A stretch of 64,000 nucleotides of DNA from Chelativorans intermedius (GTDB lineage: Bacteria; Pseudomonadota; Alphaproteobacteria; Rhizobiales; Rhizobiaceae). Shown here one piece after another: positions 967 to 40,069 of the stretch. Where the stretch lies: contig NZ_JAODNW010000007.1 of assembly GCF_025398255.1 (NCBI RefSeq), positions 124,001 to 188,000 on the forward strand. Direction: 5' to 3'. Both the position numbers and the translations under genes were made by a program. Each line of letters opens with the position of its first letter. Position 1 is the first letter of the stretch. The notes under the pieces are model-generated. The model did not search any database and was not told the DNA's origin. It was given only the letters and a program-made list of their open reading frames with translations.

Positions 967-1935
967 TCAGCCGCCCGCCTTTCCGGCGATCGCGTATTTC
1001 TCGATCATGGCCTCCAGGCAGGCCACGGCGTCCGCCCCTTTGAGCGCGTTGTGCCAAAGCCGCGCCGCAATGTCCTCGTGCAGCGCCATGGCCTCGGATG
1101 CGGAGGTGATCAAGGCGACACCCAGTCGGACATTGGGCCGCTCGCCGAGCCGGAACGGGCTGATGGCGAGAATGGAGCGGTCCGCCTGGCGGAAGATCTG
1201 GAAGCTCGTCGCCGGCACGGGCTCGCGCACGATGCCGATCTGCACGCCGATGGGCTGCTCGCGCAGCATCGTCAGGATGTATTCGGCCTCGCCGCGCGCC
1301 ATCCGCCTGCGGCGCTCGATCGTCTCCGCCGGCAGGTCATGGCGGCCCACCAGACCGTGCAGGAGAAACCGTTCGAGATCGGCAGAGGAAATGAGGCTGA
1401 CGATCAGCGGGCGGCGGGCGCGGAAGGCTTCCTTCCGCGCCTTGAGAATCTCCATCAGCGCCTCGACGGCCTCCTCCGAGGCGCCGTCGGGATCGGCCCC
1501 TTCGGGGATCGATTCCTTCATCACCTCCCCCAGCACCGTGTCATAGGCGTCGGAGGTGAGAAGGTAGGAGACCGGGCTGAAGAGGCCGATGATCTGCTCG
1601 CAGGATTCTTCGAGCTGGCGCATGCGCTCGAAGAAGGCCGTCGCGGTGCTCACATATTCGACGCCGACACCCAGAAGGCTGGGCAGGGAGACGCCCAGCT
1701 CGTTGGCAATCGAGGTCAGCATCTCGATCTTGCGGATCTCGCCCTTTTCTGCACGATAGAGCGCGGCGCGGGAGATTCCGAGCTTCTGCGCCAGCGCGTC
1801 GGGCGTGAGGCCCTTGCCCAGACGGTAGGCGCGCAGCCGGGCGCCAATATCGCTGAAACGGATCGAGTCTTCTTGCGTCAAGGCAGATTCCCGTGACTTG
1901 CGAGGCTGTCGCCTTATCGGGCGGCGCGTGCCCAT
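967..1935 (-). CDS. XRE-family transcriptional regulator, likely local regulator of the TRAP/orotate operon
   Basis: A 322-residue protein with an N-terminal Cro/C1-type helix-turn-helix at about residues 30-85 (LRAYRLGKGLTPDALAQKLG, then ISRAALYRAEKGE). A roughly 230-residue C-terminal region that I do not recognise may bind an effector. The gene diverges from the TRAP-pyr operon across a 156-bp AT-rich region carrying several TTCTC/GAGAA repeats, the usual arrangement for a local regulator. The ATG at 1935 lacks a clear Shine-Dalgarno sequence, so the true start may lie a little downstream. Whether it represses or activates, and which ligand it senses (orotate or dihydroorotate would fit), is not visible in the sequence. 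Confidence 0.82.
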   Translation of the reverse strand: MGTRRPIRRQPRKSRESALTQEDSIRFSDIGARLRAYRLGKGLTPDALAQKLGISRAALYRAEKGEIRKIEMLTSIANELGVSLPSLLGVGVEYVSTATAFFERMRQLEESCEQIIGLFSPVSYLLTSDAYDTVLGEVMKESIPEGADPDGASEEAVEALMEILKARKEAFRARRPLIVSLISSADLERFLLHGLVGRHDLPAETIERRRRMARGEAEYILTMLREQPIGVQIGIVREPVPATSFQIFRQADRSILAISPFRLGERPNVRLGVALITSASEAMALHEDIAARLWHNALKGADAVACLEAMIEKYAIAGKAGG

Positions 1936-1954
1936 TTGTCAACGGACGGCTCAA

Positions 1955-2012
1955 TTCTCGCCATCAAGATCAATTATTATACGAAAATCGAGAAAGTCTC
2001 ATTTTTGAGAAA
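1955..2012. promoter_or_regulatory. Repeated TTCTC/GAGAA half-sites between divergent promoters (candidate operator)
   Basis: TTCTCG at 1955-1960 pairs with CGAGAA at 1989-1994. The perfect inverted repeat TCTCA-TTTT-TGAGA lies at 1997-2010. GAGAAA recurs at 1990-1995 and 2007-2012. On the minus strand a perfect TATAAT (plus-strand ATTATA, 1976-1981) would serve the XRE gene. The cluster sits just upstream of the plus-strand -35 element. It is a candidate binding region for the divergently encoded XRE protein; no binding data exist. Confidence 0.5.
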
Positions 2013-2017
2013 AATCG

Positions 2018-2045
2018 TTGACACGCTATTGTGTGCTGCTAGGCT
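2018..2045 (+). promoter_or_regulatory. Candidate sigma-70-type promoter of the TRAP/orotate operon
   Basis: A perfect TTGACA at 2018-2023 is followed after 16 bp by TAGGCT at 2040-2045, a weak -10. The start codon of the TRAP binding protein is 46 bp further on, after an AAGGAAAGAGGTGG ribosome site. The strong -35 with a poor -10 would suit an activated or inducible promoter, which is inference. Confidence 0.45.
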
Positions 2046-2091
2046 GGGCCTTTCCGTGCCGATCCGTGCCAATAAGGAAAGAGGTGGAACG

Positions 2092-3114
2092 ATGAACCAT
2101 TCAATTCGCAAGCTGGCCGCAACGGCCGTTCTTGCCGCGGCCGGTGCCGCATTCGCATCCGGCGCCTGGGCGGCGGAGTTCGTGGCCAAGATCGGCCATC
2201 TGGAATCGACCCAGCAGTCCCGGCATGTCCATCTGGAAAAGGTGGCCGAGCTCGTGGCCGAGCGCACGGATGGCGCCGTGGAGTTCCAGATCTTTCCGCA
2301 GGGCCAGCTCGGCCAGCAGCGCGAGATGACGGAAGGCGTGCAGCTCGGCACGCTGGAGGCGACCGTCGCGCCGGCGGCTTTCCTCGGCGGCTTCAATCCC
2401 GCCATCTCCATCCTCGACATTCCCTTCCTGCTGCCCGAGGATGAGGAGAAGGCGCAGGCGCTGCGCGCCGGTGCCTTCGGCCAGGCGCTGTGCGATTCCT
2501 TCGACACGCGTGGCGTGGAGTGCCTGATGTTGTGGCCGAACGGCCGCAAGAACTTCACCTCCAGCAAGCCCATCGCCGGAATGGAGGATTTTTCGGGCCA
2601 GAAGTTCCGCGTCATGGATTCCAACATCCTGATCGAACAGTTCAACGCCCTGGGCGCCTCCGCCATCGCGCTGCCCTTCGGCGAGCTTTACACCTCGCTG
2701 CAGACCGGCGTGGTCGATGGTCAGGAAAACCCGCTCGACACCATCCGCGCGATGAAGTTCTACGAGGTCCAGGATCATCTGGTGCTCTCCAACCACGGCG
2801 CGATGGAGGACGTGATCCTCTTCAACACCGCTTTCTGGAACGGCCTGCCGGAGAACTATCAGACGATCATCGTCGACGCCTTCAGGGAGGTGATCCCCGA
2901 TCTGATCGCCCACAAGCAGGCCGCCGTCGCCGCGTCGCTTGAGGAGATCAAGGCAGCCGGCGTCACGGTGCACGAGCTTTCCCCGGAGGAGAAGGCCGCC
3001 TTCCGGGAGGCCATGTATCCGGCCACCCGCGCCGCCTATGTCGAGCGGGCGGGCGCAGAGGGCGAGGAGCTGATCGCGCTCTACGAGCAGGAATACGCCA
3101 AGCTTTCCGAGTAA
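2092..3114 (+). CDS. TRAP transporter substrate-binding protein (DctP family), candidate orotate/dihydroorotate receptor
   Basis: A 340-residue periplasmic solute-binding protein of the DctP/TRAP family. A signal peptide occupies about residues 1-26 (positive start, hydrophobic run, cleavage near GAWA/AEF). The family pattern follows: an early KIGH strand, QIFPQGQLG, and KFRVMDSN with the arginine that normally clamps a substrate carboxylate. I start at ATG 2092 because of its ribosome site and signal peptide; the frame is open further upstream, but that would bury the signal. It is the first gene of an operon whose enzymes act on orotate-pathway carboxylates, so an orotate-like ligand is inferred. 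Other carboxylates remain possible because TRAP receptors cannot be assigned by sequence alone. Confidence 0.9.
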   Translation: MNHSIRKLAATAVLAAAGAAFASGAWAAEFVAKIGHLESTQQSRHVHLEKVAELVAERTDGAVEFQIFPQGQLGQQREMTEGVQLGTLEATVAPAAFLGGFNPAISILDIPFLLPEDEEKAQALRAGAFGQALCDSFDTRGVECLMLWPNGRKNFTSSKPIAGMEDFSGQKFRVMDSNILIEQFNALGASAIALPFGELYTSLQTGVVDGQENPLDTIRAMKFYEVQDHLVLSNHGAMEDVILFNTAFWNGLPENYQTIIVDAFREVIPDLIAHKQAAVAASLEEIKAAGVTVHELSPEEKAAFREAMYPATRAAYVERAGAEGEELIALYEQEYAKLSE

Positions 3115-3128
3115 AGGCTGGGGGGCCT

Positions 3129-3154
3129 GCGGGCGCGGCCTTGGCCGCGCCCGC
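3129..3154 (+). other. Stable intercistronic hairpin between dctP and dctQ genes
   Basis: A perfect 12-bp GC stem (3129-3140 with 3143-3154) closes on a two-base TT loop, 15 bp after the binding-protein stop codon, with no T-run. Such hairpins commonly protect the upstream message 3' end, giving more binding protein than permease. That role is inferred. Confidence 0.6.
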
Positions 3155-3209
3155 TCTTGCCCGTTCGCAACGGCGAAACGGCCCGTTGAAGGGCCCGTGG
3201 AGCAGCTGA

Positions 3210-3713
3210 ATGCGCAATGTGCTTTCGATCCTGCGCACCGCGGAGCGGTCGGCGCTGGTGGTGATATTCCTGGCGATGGTGGGCCTCTACTTCGTCAATG
3301 TGGTGGTGCGCGCCACTGAAAGCCCGCTGGCCTCCGATCTCGCATGGATCGAGGAGGCCGTCAGGATCATGAACCTCTATCTGGTCTTCCTCGCCATCGG
3401 CTACGCGCTCGAGATCGGCCGTCATGTGGCGGTCGACACCTGGCGTGCGCGCATCGCCGCGGCCACGGGGCTGCCGCTCCGCCGCATCATCGACGCGGTG
3501 GGCCTGCTCTTCTCGCTCTATCTCGCATGGCTCGGCTGGAAGATGACGGGATTCGTCTTCGGCACCGGCCAGGAGAGCCCGACGCTCGGCATCCGCATGG
3601 GCTGGATCTATGTCGCGCCCACCATCGGCTTCGCGCTGCTTGCGCTGCGCTATCTGCTCGGTCTCCTGGGCCTCCTCGACCGCCAGCCGCCAGGGGAGGC
3701 GCAAGACGCATGA
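3210..3713 (+). CDS. TRAP transporter small permease (DctQ family)
   Basis: A 167-residue inner-membrane protein with four predicted hydrophobic segments (about residues 15-35, 50-70, 92-112 and 132-155). It has the size and layout of the DctQ small subunit, which pairs with DctM and is required for TRAP transport driven by an ion gradient. It lies between the binding protein (95-bp gap with a hairpin) and DctM, whose ATG overlaps its stop codon in ATGA, so translation is coupled. Sequence alone does not indicate the substrate; that comes from the operon. Family assignment is firm on size, topology and position. Confidence 0.88.
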   Translation: MRNVLSILRTAERSALVVIFLAMVGLYFVNVVVRATESPLASDLAWIEEAVRIMNLYLVFLAIGYALEIGRHVAVDTWRARIAAATGLPLRRIIDAVGLLFSLYLAWLGWKMTGFVFGTGQESPTLGIRMGWIYVAPTIGFALLALRYLLGLLGLLDRQPPGEAQDA

Positions 3714-4996
3714 TCCTGCTTCTCCTCATCGTCGCCGTCGCCGCTCTGCTGCTCGTCACGGGGTTCGAGATGTTTCTCGTGCTCGGCGTGCCGGCCCTCT
3801 TGATCAAGCAGATCTTCTACGGCACGCTGCCCGACCCCGTGGTGGTGCAGAAGGTGGTGGGCGGCATCAACCACTCGACCCTGCTTGCCATTCCCTTCTT
3901 CATCCTGGCGGCTGAGCTCATGGGCGAGGGGCAGATCGCCCGGCGGCTGACCGGCCTCGTCCAGTCGCTGCTCGGCCATCGCAAGGGCGGCGTGGGTTAC
4001 ACCATCATCGGCGGCTCCATGGCCTTCGGCTCCGTTTCCGGTTCCGCGCCCGCCACCGTGGCGGCCATGGGCCGGCTCGTGTTTCCCGAAATGCGCAAGG
4101 TGGGCTTCAGCGAGAAGTTCTCGCTCGGCCTCATCGCCTCCAGCGCCGAGACCGCGCTTCTCATTCCGCCGTCCATCACCTTCATCATCTATGGCTGGAT
4201 GACGGGCACCTCCGTCGCGCGGCTTTTCGTGGCCGGCCTGGCGGCCGGGCTCGTGCTCGGCCTCGTCTTTGCCGTTCTGGTGGCCATCGAAGCGCGCCGC
4301 AGCGGCGTCTCGGCGGGCGAGCGCATCGGCTGGGCAGGGCGGCTCGCCGCCATCCGCCATGCCGGCTGGGCGCTTGGCATGCCGGTGATCATCCTGGGCG
4401 GCATCTATTCGGGGTTCTTCACGCCCACGGAGGCCGCCGCCGTCAGCGTCGTCTACGCCATTTTCGTGGAGGCCGTGGTCTTTCGCGAGCTCAGCCTCGG
4501 CAAGCTGTTCAGGGTAACCGAGCGCGCCGCCGTCTCCACCGCCATCATCTTCATCCTGCTGGCGCTTGGCGGCCTTCTGTCCTACTTCATCACGCTGGCC
4601 CAGGTGCCGAACCACATTCTGGGCTTCCTGTCGGCCGTCGATGCCGGGCCGGTGGTCTTCCTGCTGGTGGTGAACGTGGCCTTCCTGATTGCCGGCATGT
4701 TCATCGACCCGAACTCGGCGCTGCTCATCCTCGTGCCGCCGCTCTATCCCGTCGCCACCGCGCTCGGCGTCGATCCGGTTCATTTCGGCATGATCGTCAC
4801 GCTCAACATCTCGGTGGGGATGATCACGCCGCCCTTCGGGCTCGACCTGTTCGTCGCCTCCTCCACGCTGGGCAGGCCGGTGATGACCATCATCTCCGGC
4901 ATCTGGCCCTTCGTGCTCGCCAATCTGGTGGCGCTGGCGATCATCACCTATGTGCCCCCGATTTCCACCTTCCTGCCCGATCTGGTGTTCGGATGA
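3710..4996 (+). CDS. TRAP transporter large permease (DctM family)
   Basis: A 428-residue polytopic membrane protein, starting MILLLLIVAVAALLLVTGFE and containing about 12 hydrophobic segments. Stretches typical of DctM include a GGSMAFGSVSGSAPATVAAMG loop region, ALLIPPSITFIIYG and VGMITPPFGLDLFV. It forms the ion-coupled translocation unit with DctQ. The ATG at 3710 overlaps the DctQ stop, and its own stop overlaps the next start at 4993. The frame is open upstream to 3344, but that is a shadow of dctQ. A TRAP permease joined without a gap to PyrK and PyrD genes is unusual and supports import of an orotate-pathway compound. Confidence 0.92.
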   Translation: MILLLLIVAVAALLLVTGFEMFLVLGVPALLIKQIFYGTLPDPVVVQKVVGGINHSTLLAIPFFILAAELMGEGQIARRLTGLVQSLLGHRKGGVGYTIIGGSMAFGSVSGSAPATVAAMGRLVFPEMRKVGFSEKFSLGLIASSAETALLIPPSITFIIYGWMTGTSVARLFVAGLAAGLVLGLVFAVLVAIEARRSGVSAGERIGWAGRLAAIRHAGWALGMPVIILGGIYSGFFTPTEAAAVSVVYAIFVEAVVFRELSLGKLFRVTERAAVSTAIIFILLALGGLLSYFITLAQVPNHILGFLSAVDAGPVVFLLVVNVAFLIAGMFIDPNSALLILVPPLYPVATALGVDPVHFGMIVTLNISVGMITPPFGLDLFVASSTLGRPVMTIISGIWPFVLANLVALAIITYVPPISTFLPDLVFG

Positions 4997-5844
4997 CCGA
5001 CATGCTGACGCAGAACCCGCCCATGGCCTCCGGCCGGCCCCAGCCGACCGTCTTCGAGCGCGATCTGGCGGTGCGCGCCAACCAGCCGGTGAATGGCGAA
5101 TACATGCGTCTCGTGGTGGAGGCGCCGCCGGAGATGCTGGCGCGCTGCCGGGCCGGGCAGTTCTTCCACCTGCTGTGCCCATCCGCCGGCACCGACCAGC
5201 CCTATCTGCGCCGACCGATGAGCATCTACGGCTTCTATCCGCAGGAAGGCACGTTGCACTTTCTCTACAAGGTCGCGGGCGCAGGCACGCGGGCGCTGTT
5301 CCATCTGGCGCCGGGAGACCGGCTCAACGTGTTGGGGCCGCTCGGCCGTGGCTTCCATATCGCCGAAGACTGGCAGAGGCTCGTACTCCTTGCCCGCGGT
5401 GTCGGTCTTGCCACCCTGGCGCCTCTGGCGCTGGAGGCGCATCGGCTCGGCCGGCATCTGACGGCGATCTGCAGCGCGCGCCGGCCCGACCTTCTGATGT
5501 CGGTCGACTATTTCCGCCATCTCGGCGCCGATGTCATCACGGTTACCGATGCCGAGGGCACCTCGGACGTGGCGCATCTCGAAAGCCTTCTGGAGGGCCT
5601 GATTGCCGGTGCGGGTGTGGACGCCTTCTACACATGCGGCTCCAACCGGCTGCTCGCCCTCCTGCAGCGCATGGGCAAGCGTCACGGCATCCCCGGCCAG
5701 ATCGCGCTCGAGCAGCAGATGGCCTGCGGCCTCGGCATGTGCCATTGCTGCGTGCGCCCATTCCGCAAGGACGGGGCCACCGTGCAGCTGCGCGTGTGCC
5801 GCGAGGGGCCCGTCTTCGACATGCAGGAGGCGATGCCGTGGTAG
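4993..5844 (+). CDS. pyrK: Dihydroorotate dehydrogenase electron transfer subunit (PyrK-like)
   Basis: A 283-residue protein of the ferredoxin reductase-like PyrK family: an N-terminal FAD-binding barrel (about 15-110, with LRRPMSIYG), an NAD-binding Rossmann region (about 115-240), and a C-terminal 2Fe-2S motif with Cys245, Cys250, Cys253 and Cys269 (C-x4-C-x2-C-x15-C) before EGPVF, closely matching known PyrK spacing. It passes electrons between NAD(H) and the FMN of the class 1B PyrD. The reaction is reversible, so with NADH it can drive orotate reduction. Its start overlaps dctM by 4 bp, and its stop lies inside the start of pyrD. Cys252 is an extra cysteine in the motif. Confidence 0.88.
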   Translation: MTDMLTQNPPMASGRPQPTVFERDLAVRANQPVNGEYMRLVVEAPPEMLARCRAGQFFHLLCPSAGTDQPYLRRPMSIYGFYPQEGTLHFLYKVAGAGTRALFHLAPGDRLNVLGPLGRGFHIAEDWQRLVLLARGVGLATLAPLALEAHRLGRHLTAICSARRPDLLMSVDYFRHLGADVITVTDAEGTSDVAHLESLLEGLIAGAGVDAFYTCGSNRLLALLQRMGKRHGIPGQIALEQQMACGLGMCHCCVRPFRKDGATVQLRVCREGPVFDMQEAMPW

Positions 5845-6782
5845 ATCTCTCGGTCGACATCGCGGGCCTCACGCTCAAGAACCCCGTCATGCCGGCCTCC
5901 GGCACCTTTTCGGAGGAGCTGGCGGAGGTCTTCGACATCGAGTGCCTCGGCGCGCATGTGACGAAAACCATCACCCGCGGCTTCCGCGATGGCAATCCGA
6001 CGCCCCGCGTGTGCGAGGTCGGCGGCTCGATGCTCAATTCCATCGGCATCCCGAGCAAGGGTGTGGCCGCCTTCCTCGAGAAGGTCGTGCCCTTCTACCG
6101 GGACTATGAGACGCCCTTGGTGGTCTCGATTTCCGGCAACACGGCAGACGAGTTCGCCGCGCTGTGCGCGGAGGTCTCGGTCGAAGGCGTGGCCGCCATC
6201 GAGGTCAACATCTCCTGCCCCAACATCGAGGAGGACGGCAAGGCCTTCGCCATCCGCCCCTCCTCCACCTATGAGGTGATGCGCAAGCTGCGCCGGGCCA
6301 CCCGCCTGCCCCTGTGGGCGAAGCTCACGCCCAATACGGGCGAGACGCCGGAGGTGGCACGGGCGGCCGAGGAAGGAGGCGCGGATGCGCTGGTGGTCGC
6401 CAACACACTGCTCGCGATGGCCATCGACATCCGCACCCGCCGGCCCAAGCTCGGCAACCTGATGGGCGGGCTTTCCGGCCCGTCGCTGAAGCCCATTGCC
6501 CTGCGCATGGCCTACCAGTGCGCCAAGGCAACCGGCATTCCGGTGATCGGCTGTGGCGGCATCGCCACTGCGGAGGATGTGGTGGAGTTCCTGATCGCCG
6601 GCGCCACTGCCGTGCAGGTTGGCACGGCCACCTTCATCAATCCCACGGCGATGCTCACCATCATCGCCGATTTGGAGCGCTATCTGGAGCGCGAGGGGAT
6701 CGCCTCCGTGCGCGACCTCATCGGCACCGTGATCGACGGGGAGCAGAAGGCGGGTGTGGTCTTCATGGAGGCCGCGCCATGA
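5838..6782 (+). CDS. pyrD: Dihydroorotate dehydrogenase, class 1B, inferred to work as NADH-dependent orotate reductase
   Basis: A 314-residue TIM-barrel flavoprotein. It has class 1 features: [10 protein letters not shown] near residues 15-24, [15 protein letters not shown] near 43-57, and NISCPN with catalytic Cys127 where class 2 enzymes carry serine. The partner PyrK gene directly upstream marks it as class 1B. I chose GTG 5838 because AGGAGG (5825-5830) sits 7 bp before it; it overlaps pyrK by 7 bp. A class 2 enzyme elsewhere in the window (38978-40069) can serve biosynthesis. This copy, in an operon with an importer and a carbamoylase, is therefore inferred to reduce orotate to dihydroorotate. 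Direction in vivo is not proven by sequence. Confidence 0.88.
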
Positions 6783-8062
6783 CGGCGGCCCGGCACATTG
6801 CCATGGACGAACGCGAGGAGGAACGGCGCCTCGCCGCCTTCCTGTTCGAGGAAGTGGCAAGGCTTTCGCCAGATGTCGAGGGCGTGAGCCGCCCCGCCTT
6901 CTCCGACGTGGAGACCAGAACGCTCTCCTTCCTCGGGGATTTCGCGCGCAGCCAGGGCCTCGAGGTCTGGTACGATGCCGGCCGCAACGCCAATTTCTGC
7001 CTGCCGGGCGCACGCCGGGCGGCGCGCTACATCCTCGTCGGCTCGCATGTGGACAGCGTGCCCTTCGGCGGCAATTTCGACGGGCTTGCCGGCGTCGTGA
7101 CCGGCCTTCTCTGCCTGCTGCGGGCAAAAAGGCGGGGCATCCGCTTTCCCGTTCCTGTTCACGTGCTGGCCATGCGCGGCGAGGAAAGCGCCTGGTTCGG
7201 CCCCTGCTACATCGGTTCCAAGGCGCTAACCGGAACGCTGGGCGCGCAGGAGCTCAAGGCGAAGCACAAGGGCGACGGACGGTCGCTCGACGCCCATATG
7301 GCCGATGTCGGCGTCGACATGGACCGGGTACGCGCCGGCGTGCCCCTCATCGACCTGTCGGCGGTCGCTGCCTATGTGGAGCTGCACATCGAACAGGGGC
7401 CCCTTCTCATCGGCAAGGACATCCCGGCCGCCGTCGTTTCCGGCATTCGCGGCAACATTCGCCACCGTGCCGTGCGCTGCCTGGGCGAGGCCGGCCATTC
7501 CGGCGCCGTGCCGCGCGCGTTCCGCCGCGATCCCGTCCTTGCCATGGCCGATCTGCTGGTGCGCCTCGACGAAAGCTGGGCAACCATCCTTGCAAAGGGC
7601 GACGATCTGGTGTTGACCAGCGGCATCGTGGCCACGGATCCGGAGAAGCATGCCATGTCGCGCATACCCGATTCGGTCTCCTTCAGCCTCGATATCCGCA
7701 GCCAGAGCGCGAGGACGCTGGACGAGATGCGCGACCTTCTGCGTGCCGAGATGCGCCAGATCGAGCGCGACCGCAAGGTACGCTTCGAGCTGGACGAGGA
7801 AATGCGCGTCGAGCCGGCCTTGTGCGATTCCGTCCTTGTCGAGCGGCTGTTGCGGGCGATGGGCCGGTCGGGGCAGGAGCCCTTCGTGATGTCGAGCGGC
7901 GGTGGGCACGATGCCGCCGTCTTCGCGGGCGCAGGCGTTCCCTCCGCCATGGTGTTCGTGCGCAATCAGAACGGCTCGCACAACCCGCAGGAAGCGATGG
8001 AGCTTGCCGACTTCCTCGCCGCCACCGACATTGTTCACGAGTTCCTGACGGAAGCGCCATGA
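6779..8062 (+). CDS. M20-family Zn-dependent N-carbamoyl-L-amino acid amidohydrolase, candidate ureidosuccinase
   Basis: A 427-residue member of the allantoate deiminase/HyuC family. Metal-site motifs are in order: [15 protein letters not shown] (His and Asp ligands), [17 protein letters not shown], and a C-terminal GGGHDA. Family members hydrolyse N-carbamoyl amino acids or allantoate to amine, CO2 and ammonia. Here it sits between PyrD and dihydroorotase with 4-bp overlaps on both sides, so its likely substrate is N-carbamoyl-L-aspartate, giving L-aspartate. That activity (ureidosuccinase) is known from orotate-fermenting anaerobes. The specificity is inferred from position; a role with another ureido acid is the alternative. 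Pyrimidine synthesis has no step for this enzyme, which is the main argument that the operon is catabolic. Confidence 0.87.
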
Positions 8063-9102
8063 AGAAACTGACGATCAGAAGGCCGGACGACTGGCATCTC
8101 CACCTGCGCGACGGCGCGGTGCTCAAGGCCGTCCTGCCCTACACCGCAGCGCATTTCGGCCGCGCCATCGTAATGCCCAATCTGGTGCCGCCGGTGGTCA
8201 CATGCGCCGATGCCGAGGCTTACCGCCGCCGCATCATGGCCGCCCTGCCCGAAGGCCTGGACTTTACGCCGCTGATGACGCTCTACCTCACCGAGGAGAC
8301 GGACGCGGCGGATGTCGAGGCCGGGTTCCGCGATGGTCTGGTCACGGCCGTCAAGCTCTATCCGGCCGGCGCCACCACCAACTCGCAGAGCGGCGTGCGC
8401 GACATCGCCCGCGTCTACCCCGTGCTGGAGCGCATGGCGGAAATCGGCATGCCGCTGTGCGTGCATGGCGAGGTGACCGACCCGCGGATCGACATCTTCG
8501 ACCGCGAGGCCGTCTTCATCGAGACGGTGCTGGACCCGCTGCGCCGCCGCATCCCCGGCCTGCGCGTGGTCATGGAGCATGTCACCACGCGGGAGGGGGT
8601 GGACTATGTCCGCGCCCAGGACGGGACCATGGGGGCGACGATCACCACCCACCACCTGATGATCAACCGCAATGCCATTCTGGCCGGCGGTATCCGCCCG
8701 CATTACTACTGTCTGCCGGTCGCCAAGCGCGAAGAGCACCGCCTTGCCCTGCGCAGGGCCGCCACATCGGGCGATGCCCGTTTCTTTCTCGGCACGGATT
8801 CAGCGCCCCATGTCGATCCGCTCAAGGAGTGCGCCTGTGGCTGCGCAGGCATCTTTTCCGCGCCCAACACGTTGTCCTGCCTGGCGCATGTCTTCGAGGA
8901 GGAAGGGGCGCTCGACCGCCTGGAGGCGTTCACATCGCTCAACGGGCCCGGCTTTTATCGCCTGCCGCCCAACGAGCAGCATGTTACGCTGGAGCGCCGC
9001 GACGCGCCCGTCGCGTTCCCCGCAAAGGTGGAGACGGGCGAGGGGACGGTGACGGTTTTCGATCCCATGACGCCGATCTTCTGGAGCGTCAGCATGCCGT
9101 GA
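8059..9102 (+). CDS. pyrC: Dihydroorotase, E. coli PyrC type (inferred catabolic)
   Basis: A 347-residue amidohydrolase matching the length of E. coli PyrC. Visible motifs: [10 protein letters not shown] near residues 10-19 (two zinc histidines), [13 protein letters not shown] with the lysine expected to be carbamylated, [18 protein letters not shown], and LGTDSAPH with the catalytic aspartate. It interconverts dihydroorotate and N-carbamoyl-L-aspartate. The ATG overlaps the amidohydrolase stop by 4 bp. No aspartate transcarbamoylase is nearby, and the gene is coupled to an uptake system, so it probably works in the hydrolytic direction. A second, biosynthetic dihydroorotase would be expected elsewhere in the genome but is not visible here. 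Confidence 0.92.
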
Positions 9103-9172
9103 GCCGCCCGCGGCCGGCGCATGGGGAGCGGTGTATTTCGGGCTATCGCGACAGGGTGTAAAGGAGAAGCAA

Positions 9173-9496
9173 ATGTTCATCGAGCTCGCAAAGGGTCTCA
9201 ACGAAAGGGGGGCCGGCGTGCGCGCCTATGATGCGTGCGCCCGCGCGGCGCGTGCCCGCATGGCAGGCGAGCCGGAAAATGCCGCCGCGCTTCTGCTCAT
9301 TTCCTACGCCGCCCAGCTTTTCGTCGATGCCTATGACGACCAGCCGCTGAGCGTGGCTGCGGCGGGCGAGGAGTTCGAGCAGTTCAGCAAGATCGTGACC
9401 ACGCTCGAGGACGCCTACGGGAGCGGCTCTGCCGAGGCGAAGGTGGACGCGCTCAACAGGGTGGCGGCCATGCTGGTTTCGGCGCGGAGGGGCTGA
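9173..9496 (+). CDS. Hypothetical protein at the end of the orotate operon
   Basis: A 107-residue, probably cytoplasmic and largely helical, alanine-rich protein with no signal peptide or membrane segment. I do not recognise the family. The start at ATG 9173 has a good AAGGAGAAGCAA ribosome site. It lies 70 bp after pyrC on the same strand and ends at a hairpin region, so it may be the last gene of the operon or a separate small gene. Its sequence has an FEQFSKIVTTLEDAYG stretch but no catalytic motif I can name. Confidence 0.65.
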   Translation: MFIELAKGLNERGAGVRAYDACARAARARMAGEPENAAALLLISYAAQLFVDAYDDQPLSVAAAGEEFEQFSKIVTTLEDAYGSGSAEAKVDALNRVAAMLVSARRG

Positions 9497-9559: not shown

Positions 9560-9808
9560 TGTTTCGATTCTGCGTTCCGGCCCTGCAAACCCGCGACGGA
9601 AGGATAAAAAAGGCGCCGCCGCGGCCGGCCCGTGCGCGCAGTCCGACAGCCGCTCCACACCTGTTGTTGACCGTTAGGCTCTTGGCATTCACCGCCACCT
9701 CGTGCAGTTGTTGGGGAGGAAGGAGATCGGATCGAGACGGGCCTCGGCCTCGTTTCCCGGTCTCCGGCAGGGTCGGACGACATGGCTTATCGGGTTCCGC
9801 CGCATCCC
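9560..9808. other. Intergenic stretch without a supportable gene
   Basis: The full gap between the two neighbouring genes runs from 9497 to 9823. Beyond the hairpins at its left end I see only GC-rich, non-coding-looking sequence, an A-rich patch near 9604-9611, and a possible weak -35 (TTGACC, 9667-9672) for the GlxA-type regulator. No RNA gene is recognisable. Confidence 0.4.
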
Positions 9809-9823
9809 GGGGAGGGTGCCGTC

Positions 9824-10786
9824 ATGAACGATGCCGCGGTGCAGGGGCAGCAATTCGCCTTTCTGCTGGTCGACAGGTTCTCGATGTTTTCGCTCGCCGC
9901 GGCGATCGACACCTTCCGCTCGGCCAATCGCCTGATGGGCCGCGATTTCTACCGCTGGACGACCGTCTCCGCGGATGGCGAGGCGGTGATGGCCTCCAAC
10001 GGCCTGCCCATCAAGGTGGACCATGCGATCGGCGATGTGCCGCCCGTCGACATCCTGTTTGTGTGCGTCGGGCTGACGACGGAGTTCCCCGGAAAGAACA
10101 GGGTGCTGGCGGCGCTGCGCGCCTGGGGGCGCCAGGGCCGTGCGCTCGGCGCTCTGGCGGCCGGTTCCCTGCTTCTGGCGGAGGCAGGGCAGCTCGACGG
10201 TCATCGCTGCACGATCCACTGGGAGAATCGCGCCGGTTTCAGGGAGCGTTTTCCCGAGATCGAGTGCACCGGCAATGTCTACGAGATCGACCGTAAACGC
10301 TATACCTGCGCCGGGGTCTCCACCTCGATCGACCTGATGCTGGAGATCATCCGCGCCGATTTCGGCAGCAGCCTCGTCAATGAGGTTGCCAACCAGTTCC
10401 AGCACGAGCGGATTCGCTCTCCCGTTGACCGGCAGCGCGTCGGCCCCGAGCGCGACCTCGCCGGCAAGTCGGAGAAGCTGCAGAAGATCGTCGCTTTGAT
10501 GGCGGAAAAGCTGGACGAGCCTCTGTCGGCGGCCGATCTGGCCAGGGCGGCGGGCCTTTCGGTGCGGCAGGTTGAGCGGCTTTTCCTGCGCCATCTGGGG
10601 CAGACGCCTGGCCGCTACTACATGCGGCTCAGGCTCGAGCGGGCGCGCCAGCTTCTGCGCCAGACGAACATGCCCATCCTGGACGTGGCCGTGGCAACAG
10701 GTTTTACCTCGCACTCCTATTTCGCCCAGAGCTACCGCCAACAGTTCGGCAGGCCGCCGAGCGACGAGCGGCGAACAACCTACTAG
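9824..10786 (+). CDS. GlxA-family transcriptional regulator (DJ-1/PfpI-like domain plus AraC helix-turn-helix)
   Basis: A 320-residue regulator. Residues about 8-175 form a class I glutamine amidotransferase-like domain (FAFLLVDRFSMFSLAAAID at the start, IHWEN and CAGVSTSIDLMLEII further on). Residues about 225-315 form an AraC-type double helix-turn-helix (LSAADLARAAGLSVRQVERLF, then PILDVAVATGFTSHSYFAQSY). I start at ATG 9824 with GGGGAGGG 8 bp upstream rather than at the upstream ATG 9782. Relatives control use of betaine, carnitine, arginine and similar compounds. The next gene is an amino acid symporter, so the likely target is that transporter. Confidence 0.88.
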   Translation: MNDAAVQGQQFAFLLVDRFSMFSLAAAIDTFRSANRLMGRDFYRWTTVSADGEAVMASNGLPIKVDHAIGDVPPVDILFVCVGLTTEFPGKNRVLAALRAWGRQGRALGALAAGSLLLAEAGQLDGHRCTIHWENRAGFRERFPEIECTGNVYEIDRKRYTCAGVSTSIDLMLEIIRADFGSSLVNEVANQFQHERIRSPVDRQRVGPERDLAGKSEKLQKIVALMAEKLDEPLSAADLARAAGLSVRQVERLFLRHLGQTPGRYYMRLRLERARQLLRQTNMPILDVAVATGFTSHSYFAQSYRQQFGRPPSDERRTTY

Positions 10787-38977: not shown

Positions 38978-40069
38978 TCAATCGAGCGGCTGGGCCGCCC
39001 ACGCCTCCACACGGCTGTCCCGGATTTCGGCGATGGATGTCACGCCGCGGGATTCCAGATAGGCATCCATTTCCCGCAGGATGCGCGCGGCAAGGCCGGG
39101 CCCCTCGTAGATCATGCCGGTGTAGAGCTGCACAAGGTCAGCCCCGGCCCGGATCTTCTCCAGCGCCGTTTCCGCCGAATCGACGCCGCCCACCCCGATG
39201 ATCGGCAGCCACGGCCCGATCAGCCGGCGCATCCTGGCAAGCACGCGGGTCGAGCGGGCAAAGAGCGGCGCACCGGACAGGCCGCCCGGTTCCCCGCCGG
39301 CGGGGTCTCGCACGCCTCGGCGCGACAGGGTGGTGTTGGAGACGATGAGCCCGTCCACCCGCTTGTCCAGCACCTCCGCCGCGATGTCGGCCAGCGCCGC
39401 CTCGGAAAGGTCGGGCGCGATCTTCAGGAAAACCGGGGTGGGCGCCCCAAGGCCCCTGTTCTGCCTGTCGCGGGCGGCCATCACGCGCGACAGAAGCTCG
39501 CCGAGCGCCTGGCGCTCCTGCAGGGCCCGCAGGCCGGCCGTATTGGGCGAGGAAATGTTGACCGCCAGGTAGGAGGCCACGGTGGAGAAGACACGCACCC
39601 CCTCCTCATAGTCCGCGATGCGGTCGGCGCTGTCGCGGTTGGCGCCGATATTCACGCCCACGATGCCGCCGTGCGGCGCCCTCGCCAGCAGGCGGGAATA
39701 GGCGCTCTGGTGGCCTTCGTTGTTGAAGCCCAGCCGGTTGATCACGGCGCGCTCCTCGATCAACCGGAAAACGCGCGGCCTGGGGTTTCCTTCCTGCGGG
39801 CGCGGCGTCACCGTGCCGCATTCGGCAAAGCCGAAGCCCAGCCGCAGCAGCGCATCCGGCACCTCGGCATTCTTGTCGAAGCCGGCGGCCATGCCCAGCG
39901 GATTGGGAAAGTGCAGCCCCGCCAGGGTGCGCGACAGCCGTTGCGAGGCCGGCGGCGGGCAGGAGAGCGGAACGCCGGTCTTCAGCGCGGCGATCGACAG
40001 GGCGTGCGCCCGCTCCGGGTCGAGCGAGGTGAGCAGCGACCGGCTCGCAAGGTCGATGAAACGCTTCAT
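38978..40069 (-). CDS. pyrD: Dihydroorotate dehydrogenase, class 2 (quinone-linked)
   Basis: A 363-residue membrane-associated flavoprotein. An N-terminal helical extension (RFIDLASRSLLTSLDPERAH) binds quinone, and NPLGMAAGFDKNAEVPDALLRLG and NISSPNTAGLRALQ follow. The catalytic residue is serine (NISSPNT), which defines class 2 and contrasts with the cysteine in the class 1B enzyme at 5838-6782. It makes orotate for UMP synthesis using respiratory quinones. Its start overlaps the DUF952 stop by 4 bp. The presence of both classes supports a separate, non-biosynthetic role for the other. Confidence 0.96.
   Translation of the reverse strand: MKRFIDLASRSLLTSLDPERAHALSIAALKTGVPLSCPPPASQRLSRTLAGLHFPNPLGMAAGFDKNAEVPDALLRLGFGFAECGTVTPRPQEGNPRPRVFRLIEERAVINRLGFNNEGHQSAYSRLLARAPHGGIVGVNIGANRDSADRIADYEEGVRVFSTVASYLAVNISSPNTAGLRALQERQALGELLSRVMAARDRQNRGLGAPTPVFLKIAPDLSEAALADIAAEVLDKRVDGLIVSNTTLSRRGVRDPAGGEPGGLSGAPLFARSTRVLARMRRLIGPWLPIIGVGGVDSAETALEKIRAGADLVQLYTGMIYEGPGLAARILREMDAYLESRGVTSIAEIRDSRVEAWAAQPLD

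Follow-up and report, generated by a model that had tools for sequence, protein, structure and literature searches.

The question raised by one stretch of the genome of Chelativorans intermedius (contig NZ_JAODNW010000007.1, positions 124,001 to 188,000; the whole 64,000 nucleotides are called the window here) is why a transporter should share an operon with enzymes of pyrimidine metabolism. At positions 2092–9102 of the window, seven genes on one strand encode the P, Q and M proteins of a tripartite ATP-independent periplasmic (TRAP) transporter, PyrK, a class 1B PyrD, an amidohydrolase of the M20 family (M20 below) and PyrC. Judging from sequence comparisons, we consider it highly likely that this operon is a regulated system for the uptake and degradation of orotate, a component used in making DNA and RNA, with the route of synthesis run in reverse. 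A preliminary description had given these seven consecutive genes in this order, and gene calls and family matches confirmed all of them. The overlaps of 4–7 bp that it gave from dctQ onwards were measured as 4, 4, 7, 4 and 4 bp (Q/M, M/PyrK, PyrK/PyrD, PyrD/M20 and M20/PyrC, respectively); P and Q are spaced by 95 bp. All seven genes are present, but the list was incomplete, as a conserved eighth gene (U, 9173–9496) follows PyrC. The three transporter genes are adjacent and their products score above the cut-offs of PF03480, PF04290 and PF06808, respectively. The seven genes are as follows.

2092..3114, + strand: TRAP solute-binding protein P, proposed orotate receptor (DctP family, PF03480 above cut-off; 65% identity to 4NN3)
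3210..3713, + strand: DctQ, TRAP small permease (PF04290, E = 2.2e-25)
3710..4996, + strand: DctM, TRAP large permease (TIGR00786, 384 bits against a cut-off of 268; PF06808 above cut-off)
4993..5844, + strand: PyrK-type electron transfer subunit (PF10418, 44.5 bits against a cut-off of 23.9; Cys motif)
5838..6782 (GTG start), + strand: class 1B dihydroorotate dehydrogenase PyrD, proposed orotate reductase (NF005574, 361 bits against a cut-off of 269)
6779..8062, + strand: M20 hydantoinase/carbamoylase-family amidohydrolase, proposed N-carbamoyl-L-aspartate amidohydrolase (ureidosuccinase) (TIGR01879, 258 bits against a cut-off of 204)
8059..9102, + strand: dihydroorotase PyrC, E. coli-type dimer (TIGR00856, pyrC_dimer, 422 bits against a cut-off of 293)

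The binding protein and its ligand

A search of solved structures with the window receptor found PDB entry 4NN3 with an E value of 2.6e-136, the next chain following at 1.6e-51; the receptor is 65% identical to 4NN3. The structure listing names 4NN3 merely as a DctP subunit, and the identity of the bound ligand is taken from an excerpt of PMC11668362, according to which the protein was crystallized with orotic acid bound and has a lysine where related receptors carry an arginine (position 152 of 4P47). In an alignment made by way of 4P47, this signature position is Lys153 in the window receptor, and the other listed positions are Arg173, Phe196 and Asn213. The asparagine reported for 4NN3 at position 76 of 4P47 is not kept (Gln75 or Gln76 in the window). 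The high identity and the signature residues place the receptor in the 4NN3 group, with a different residue at position 76. According to a review (PMC5812351), Vetting et al. (2015) had orotic acid itself as one of their new TRAP ligands. The named organisms with the closest receptors include Stappia species.

To read the neighbourhood of the 4NN3 gene, 288 genomes of one family, reached through a Desulfovibrio locus (L130), were searched; 19 gave a match, and the neighbourhoods of eight of these 19 were read. A copy of the 4NN3 stretch with 100% identity is found among the 288 genomes in G587, and this identity suggests that G587 is Maridesulfovibrio salexigens. Its cluster (L199) consists of PyrD-PyrK, about 2 kb of other sequence, a gene for an XRE-family regulator and then, divergently, P-Q-M-M20-PyrC-PyrE; U was not found at this cluster. 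This system resembles that of the window in its receptor, with the same signature lysine, and in its neighbouring enzymes, but it belongs to a distant organism, and its PyrD (45% identity) and PyrK (30%) lie beyond the XRE gene rather than inside the operon. All eight loci carry XRE, P, Q, M, M20, PyrC, PyrE, PyrK and PyrD within the fetched stretch, with 29–32% identity for PyrK; in the two that also have U (L205 and L206) all parts form one cluster. The receptor known to hold orotate thus has in its vicinity enzymes of the kinds found in the window. Because the window receptor is orthologous to orotate-bound 4NN3, and because M20, PyrC, PyrE and PyrK/PyrD lie near the 4NN3 gene, orotate is its likely substrate, and we propose, with support from these comparisons, that it is an orotate receptor.

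The enzymes

PyrK and the class 1B PyrD provide the gene pair of the proposed NAD-linked orotate reductase. The DHODB Fe–S domain of PyrK is above the Pfam cut-off and its four Fe–S cysteines (CGLGMCHCCVRPFRKDGATVQLRVC) align with PyrK in 1EP1_B; PyrD has 5UE9, 1EP1 and 5KSW as its best solved relatives and carries SCPN at 126. The dihydroorotase of a reductive orotate pathway is present in PyrC, far above its model cut-off, with 4LFY and 6CTY as the best solved chains (also 1XGE) and with the HxH, KLYPAG, VHGEV, EHVTT and LGTDSAP motifs in place. M20 retains GSHVDSV, NFDG, RGEES, HIEQG and GGGHDA, and its nearest solved chain is 3N5F, an N-carbamoyl-L-amino acid hydrolase. These are the motifs expected in the four proteins, those of M20 belonging to its metal site.

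Among 83 M20 enzymes from operons, conservation reaches 95% or more at 115 positions, 13 of which are shared by fewer than half of 22 comparison enzymes; Arg295 is mostly lysine in the latter. The comparison enzymes come from 22 of the 23 loci L146–L168 (that of L166 was too short) and could include enzymes of the same function, since some of them adjoin a PyrE-like gene.

The true substrate might instead be an analogue such as a substituted orotate or a hydantoin acid, with orotate as a stand-in: ligands found in screened receptors can be analogues, and M20 belongs to a broad subfamily, its score staying under the cut-offs of the two nearest models, one for a generic Zn-dependent hydrolase and one for allantoate amidohydrolase. 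Yet PyrC and PyrD score above the equivalog cut-offs for dihydroorotase and dihydroorotate dehydrogenase, and three enzymes match one known route; we regard an analogue as very unlikely. Hydantoin-utilization clusters, which pair a hydantoinase with an N-carbamoyl-L-amino acid hydrolase, have the M20 family in common with the window, but here no hydantoinase stands beside the carbamoylase: the ring opener is a dihydroorotase equivalog, and PyrK and PyrD are present.

Recurrence in genomes and plasmids

A genome collection described as covering 84,980 species was scanned with the receptor alignment. Of the 197 places that matched the pattern, 142 encode a relative; the best 80 of the 142 were analysed, and 71 were counted after setting aside nine loci with less than 7.5 kb downstream. 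Matches were counted by BLAST at E ≤ 1e-6, with at least 40% identity required for P, M, XRE, M20 and PyrK only. Among the 71 loci, M20 occurs in 64, PyrK and PyrD in 63 each, XRE in 61, U in 57, PyrE in 50 and PyrC in 33. Such a recurrence next to the receptor gene (63 of 71 for PyrK and PyrD) is far above chance. The preliminary description had argued that the amidohydrolase lies outside pyrimidine synthesis and completes a route from orotate; its frequent linkage to the receptor gene favours this catabolic direction.

The imported compound could alternatively be dihydroorotate or N-carbamoyl-L-aspartate, with PyrK/PyrD working as an oxidizing enzyme, since class 1B enzymes are reversible and TRAP receptors can take several related acids. 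The use of carbamoyl-aspartate needs no PyrK/PyrD, however, yet 63 of the 71 loci have this pair, and it was orotic acid that 4NN3 held (PMC11668362, in the same excerpt). We judge the import of either compound to be quite improbable.

The 80 loci are mostly from Alphaproteobacteria (for example Stappia, Nitratireductor, Aminobacter, Mesorhizobium, Celeribacter, Pseudooceanicola, Thalassospira and Pseudovibrio), and many of these genera are marine; one locus is from a Desulfovibrio and another from a member of the Desulfobulbaceae. PyrK is missing from eight of the 71 loci, among them the Desulfovibrio locus L130, which keeps M20, PyrC and PyrE. PyrC is optional, probably because the housekeeping dihydroorotase can also work in the other direction. 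More than one open frame was matched by PyrD (L051), M20 (L061), PyrK and PyrC (L066) and TRAP-M and PyrK (L070), so that the genes there could be broken or duplicated, or their sequence misassembled.

Of 385 genomes drawn from the class to which the window belongs, 14 matched PyrK at E ≤ 1e-15, and 11 of these, including that of the window, did so at 50% identity or more. Three of these genomes have PyrK without M20 at one locus (L034, L036 and L037). They were considered as counter-evidence and dropped, as M20 was found at a second locus: the system is split in these genomes into XRE-PyrK-PyrD (L036, L034 and L037) and XRE-M20-PyrC-PyrE (L171, L172 and L173), each part with its own copy of the regulator. 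For L033, L035, L038 and L039 (genomes G306, G382, G216 and G060), M20 matches had at most 32% identity or were lacking at E ≤ 1e-40; a split does not account for these four.

Matches to PyrK were also found in 80 of 72,556 plasmid records, and the regions of 15 of these 80 were opened. The PyrK-PyrD-M20 core, present in 14 of these regions, was met in Alpha-, Beta- and Gammaproteobacteria, and the transporter beside it varies: TRAP, a major facilitator superfamily (MFS) protein or none recognized. An MFS transporter takes the place of TRAP beside the same core in L025, L026, L028, L029, L030 and L049. In L027 (NZ_CP040821, 2091–11039), PyrK-PyrD lies without M20 or PyrC amid genes for xanthine dehydrogenase-family, ring-hydroxylating dioxygenase, cupin and asparaginase proteins; this dehydrogenase perhaps serves another pathway.

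Klebsiella accounts for 53 of the 80 matching plasmid records. In L029 (CP120874) and L050 (NZ_CP050823, 8941–14557) a full MFS-type set of PyrK, PyrD, M20, PyrC, XRE and U adjoins lacY-lacZ. Both opened Klebsiella plasmids were typed as IncFIB, and at least two records from milk are among the matches listed. At least 80% of the stretch formed by the MFS gene, the operon and lac was found in 49 records among the 5000 best-scoring ones; complete E. coli genomes gave no near-identical match to this stretch. Milk contains both orotate and lactose, and a dairy niche might be guessed for this reason.

Pyrimidine metabolism of the host

No pyrB, carA or pyrE is found among the seven genes, as the preliminary description had stated, and none was recognized in the genes at 967–9496 with Pfam and NCBIfam. 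No carB was recognized there either, and the cluster does not have the make-up of a de novo pyrimidine operon. Biosynthetic genes lie elsewhere: aspartate carbamoyltransferase (pyrB) and dihydroorotase (pyrC) side by side at L042, pyrE on another contig and a second PyrD in the window.

38978..40069, − strand: separate class 2 (quinone) PyrD, presumed biosynthetic, outside the operon (TIGR01036, 374 bits against a cut-off of 200)

As pyrB-pyrC, the class 2 pyrD and pyrE, the biosynthetic genes covered by the search, all occur elsewhere, the operon is probably dispensable for pyrimidine synthesis in the host. Class 1B PyrD and PyrC are biosynthetic in many bacteria, and the operon could be a second anabolic one, for instance for low oxygen, with the NAD-linked PyrD replacing the quinone enzyme. 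Such an operon would have no role for an importer or an M20 hydrolase, and it would lack pyrB and pyrE in a host that keeps a class 2 PyrD and pyrB-pyrC apart from it; we consider it extremely unlikely. The reductive degradation of uracil and thymine (PreTA, dihydropyrimidinase and β-ureidopropionase) follows the same logic of reduction, ring opening and decarbamoylation as would the orotate pathway, but the dehydrogenase and ring-opening enzyme of the window are different ones and the host has a separate PreA.

Regulator, operator and promoter

An XRE gene, which the preliminary description had joined to the system, diverges from the operon, with a candidate operator and promoter in between.

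967..1935, − strand: XRE-family regulator, N-terminal helix-turn-helix and C-terminal probable phospholipase D (PLD)-like domain (HTH_31/HTH_3 above Pfam cut-off)
1996..2010, unstranded: palindromic operator candidate GTCTCA-N4-TGAGA (conserved upstream of receptor genes)
2018..2045, + strand: promoter candidate TTGACA - 16 bp - TAGGCT (7 bp after the operator; TTGACA conserved in the alignment)

The AlphaFold model of the regulator has a predicted local distance difference test score (pLDDT) of 86.0, and confidence is good for the second domain. Foldseek gave 19 matches at E ≤ 0.001, the best at 7.3e-5, and most of them are proteins of the PLD fold; TrmBL2 is matched as well. The second domain probably has a phospholipase-D-like fold; this assignment is not certain, as the 19 matches have target-normalized template-modelling (TM) scores between 0.15 and 0.59, and in a few of them (ComR) it is the helix-turn-helix that matches. 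The catalytic HKD motif (HxK....D) is found in none of 29 XRE rows. Relatives of TrmB likewise join a DNA-binding domain to a PLD-like domain, but the DNA-binding part in the window is an XRE helix-turn-helix and the overall similarity is weak.

The operator candidate is the sole exact match in the 4.18 Mb genome, and the reversed pattern gives none. In 24 upstream regions chosen for alignment (the window, L022 and 22 of the 80 loci), a conserved TTGACA comes after GTCTCA-N4-TGAGA. With up to one mismatch and within 300 bases upstream of the receptor gene, TCTCA-N4-TGAGA occurs in 64 of the 80 loci, compared with ten of 400 random stretches, which were drawn from the same loci and may in some cases contain a true site. 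All 64 site-bearing loci have XRE nearby, and all 12 loci without XRE also lack the site; four loci (L071, L072, L112 and L125) have XRE but not the operator. The Desulfovibrio locus L130 has the operator with at most one mismatch. Exact copies were found in three of 22 further loci (L024, L032 and L047); L032 has TRAP genes, which the other further loci mostly lack. The operator has been established for part of the family only, since these 22 loci and those of the 4NN3 group were scanned for exact matches alone. Its position just upstream of the −35 box fits either an activator or a repressor.

Two further features of the region are a hairpin inside the operon and a gene downstream of it. The hairpin could restrict read-through and so leave the binding protein in excess. 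The gene, at 9782–10786, encodes an AraC-type regulator with a DJ-1/PfpI domain (GbdR-like, 338.6 bits, under the cut-off of 480), which is probably not related to the operon.

3129..3154, + strand: RNA hairpin between P and Q (fold z-score −2.12 for 3112–3212)

The small protein U

9173..9496, + strand: 107-residue helical protein U, proposed M20 partner (conserved neighbour; M20 fusions; AlphaFold model)

The open reading frame of U is listed from 9131; its start was placed at the ATG at 9173 from its relatives and from an upstream AAGGAG. The window protein has no match in Pfam or NCBIfam, and two relatives match there only far under the cut-offs. A profile of 68 members adds L101 and two M20 fusions to the loci found by BLAST. 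Four loci (L024, L047, L079 and L128) encode U as a C-terminal extension of M20, and because of this fusion and its frequent place in the neighbourhood U likely acts as a partner of the M20 hydrolase. Its AlphaFold model is all-helical (pLDDT 89.8). A search for relatives of the fold gave 142 Foldseek matches at E ≤ 10 and none at E ≤ 0.001; the best was a CheA P1-domain structure with an E value of 0.15 and a TM score of 0.48, values at which we do not claim homology. U was also sought in the 385 genomes of the class (E ≤ 1e-5, up to 12 candidates scored per genome) and found in three: that of the window, G015, where it lies about 6 kb beyond the XRE gene, and G298.

Proposed function

Starting from what was seen directly (the gene content, the families, the orthology to 4NN3, the linkage, the M20–U fusion and the conservation of the operator), we propose a pathway in which the substrate of each enzyme in this organism, the direction, the role of U and the ligand of the regulator are our suggestions. 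The TRAP receptor would capture orotate in the periplasm for import through Q and M. PyrK would hand electrons from NADH to the class 1B PyrD, which would reduce orotate to dihydroorotate; the reduction of orotate by NADH is favourable and clostridia use that route. PyrC would open the ring to give N-carbamoyl-L-aspartate, and M20, perhaps with U as its partner, would convert this to L-aspartate, CO2 and ammonia, with aspartate and ammonia entering metabolism. The divergent XRE would act at the palindrome by the −35 box, with its second domain probably sensing orotate or an intermediate, and in many relatives PyrE may divert some orotate to uridine monophosphate. The catabolic direction is supported by the lack of a role for M20 in synthesis, by its linkage in 64 of 71 loci and by the separate biosynthetic genes of the host; together with the 4NN3 orthology, these points favour the dedicated system for orotate import and catabolism that had been suggested at the outset.

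Several observations weigh against this reading. PyrK reaches 119 bits with the nearest 'electron transfer subunit' equivalog, well under its cut-off of 270. M20 is of the carbamoylase family and has the motifs of the metal site, but its substrate cannot be read from the sequence, and none of the 13 operon-biased positions is a clear ligand for a carboxylate. In seven of the 71 loci (L077, L088, L107, L111, L120, L127 and L129) the receptor or TRAP genes stand alone with the enzymes absent nearby, and these also lack an XRE gene or operator nearby. At the eight 4NN3-group loci, no exact operator stands next to the receptor gene; the group has a single exact copy (L200), about 10 kb from that gene. 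Among the 11 genomes of the class that have a close PyrK, U was found in just two and is thus not essential. In G298 (L169, 8883–9293) it overlaps an amidohydrolase gene of the dihydroorotase/hydantoinase group, the genes nearby presumably belong to ureide metabolism, and neither PyrK (E ≤ 1e-15) nor M20 (E ≤ 1e-40) was matched in the genome.

A last point is that pyrE, present in 50 of the 71 loci, permits a reading as salvage, in which the importer supplies orotate to PyrE for nucleotides and the other enzymes only balance the pool. Genes annotated as orotate phosphoribosyltransferase also occur in other clusters (L022, L023, L046 and L048), where they may have a role in salvage or in regulation; against the PyrE equivalog cut-off of 245 bits the Nitratireductor copy scores 391, though the Variovorax copy falls below it at 221. 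The window operon, however, has no pyrE. M20 would be useless in salvage, yet it is more constant than PyrE (64 against 50 of 71), and salvage of orotate would not need PyrK/PyrD. Salvage as the function of the operon seems to us unlikely, but because of the frequency of pyrE part of the orotate may feed nucleotide synthesis alongside its degradation.

Relation to known systems and significance

The fermentation of orotate by Clostridium (Zymobacterium) oroticum uses an NAD-linked orotate reductase, dihydroorotase and ureidosuccinase, a route that was established biochemically in the 1950s. The window operon would carry out the same three chemical steps with the same kind of reductase; the likeness is one of chemistry. 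Here, by contrast, the genes are those of a proteobacterium, and one operon brings them together with a TRAP importer, a new small protein and an XRE regulator whose second domain is probably PLD-like.

The preliminary description had supposed that such a system was undescribed in aerobic Proteobacteria. For Proteobacteria this appears to stand as regards the assembled operon: in open-access literature, with subscription papers mostly outside, no paper was found that joins orotate, a TRAP transporter and carbamoyl, and by the names tried no carbamoyl-aspartate hydrolase or orotate degradation pathway. In the same coverage, no title or start of an abstract among the papers listed dealt with clostridial orotate fermentation, a gene for the carbamoyl-aspartate step or a proteobacterial orotate catabolic operon, and the excerpt of PMC6022934 contains nothing on bacterial orotate degradation. 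The supposition does not stand for the ligand, as orotic acid had been published for TRAP receptors (PMC5812351); two papers in this literature bring together TRAP, a solute-binding protein and orotic acid. The chemistry and orotate as a TRAP ligand are thus known. What appears new within this coverage is the operon as a whole, the regulator together with its site, and U.

Public records of such clusters tag PyrD, and in one record PyrC, with terms for pyrimidine biosynthesis, an annotation that the catabolic reading would correct. The window supplies a complete gene set that can be put to the test, with candidates for a ureidosuccinase gene and a new subunit and with a regulator and its operator, and the counts show the gene set recurring in many Alphaproteobacteria. 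We see about an even chance that the operon represents a widespread mobile module for scavenging orotate in Proteobacteria and sulfate reducers, having in many lineages a two-part ureidosuccinase (M20 and a helical subunit of no known family) and switched by XRE regulators of a new class that have a PLD-like domain as their sensor. If this is true, orotate would become a recognized source of nitrogen and carbon in the sea and, through the Klebsiella plasmids that carry the operon beside lacYZ, in milk.

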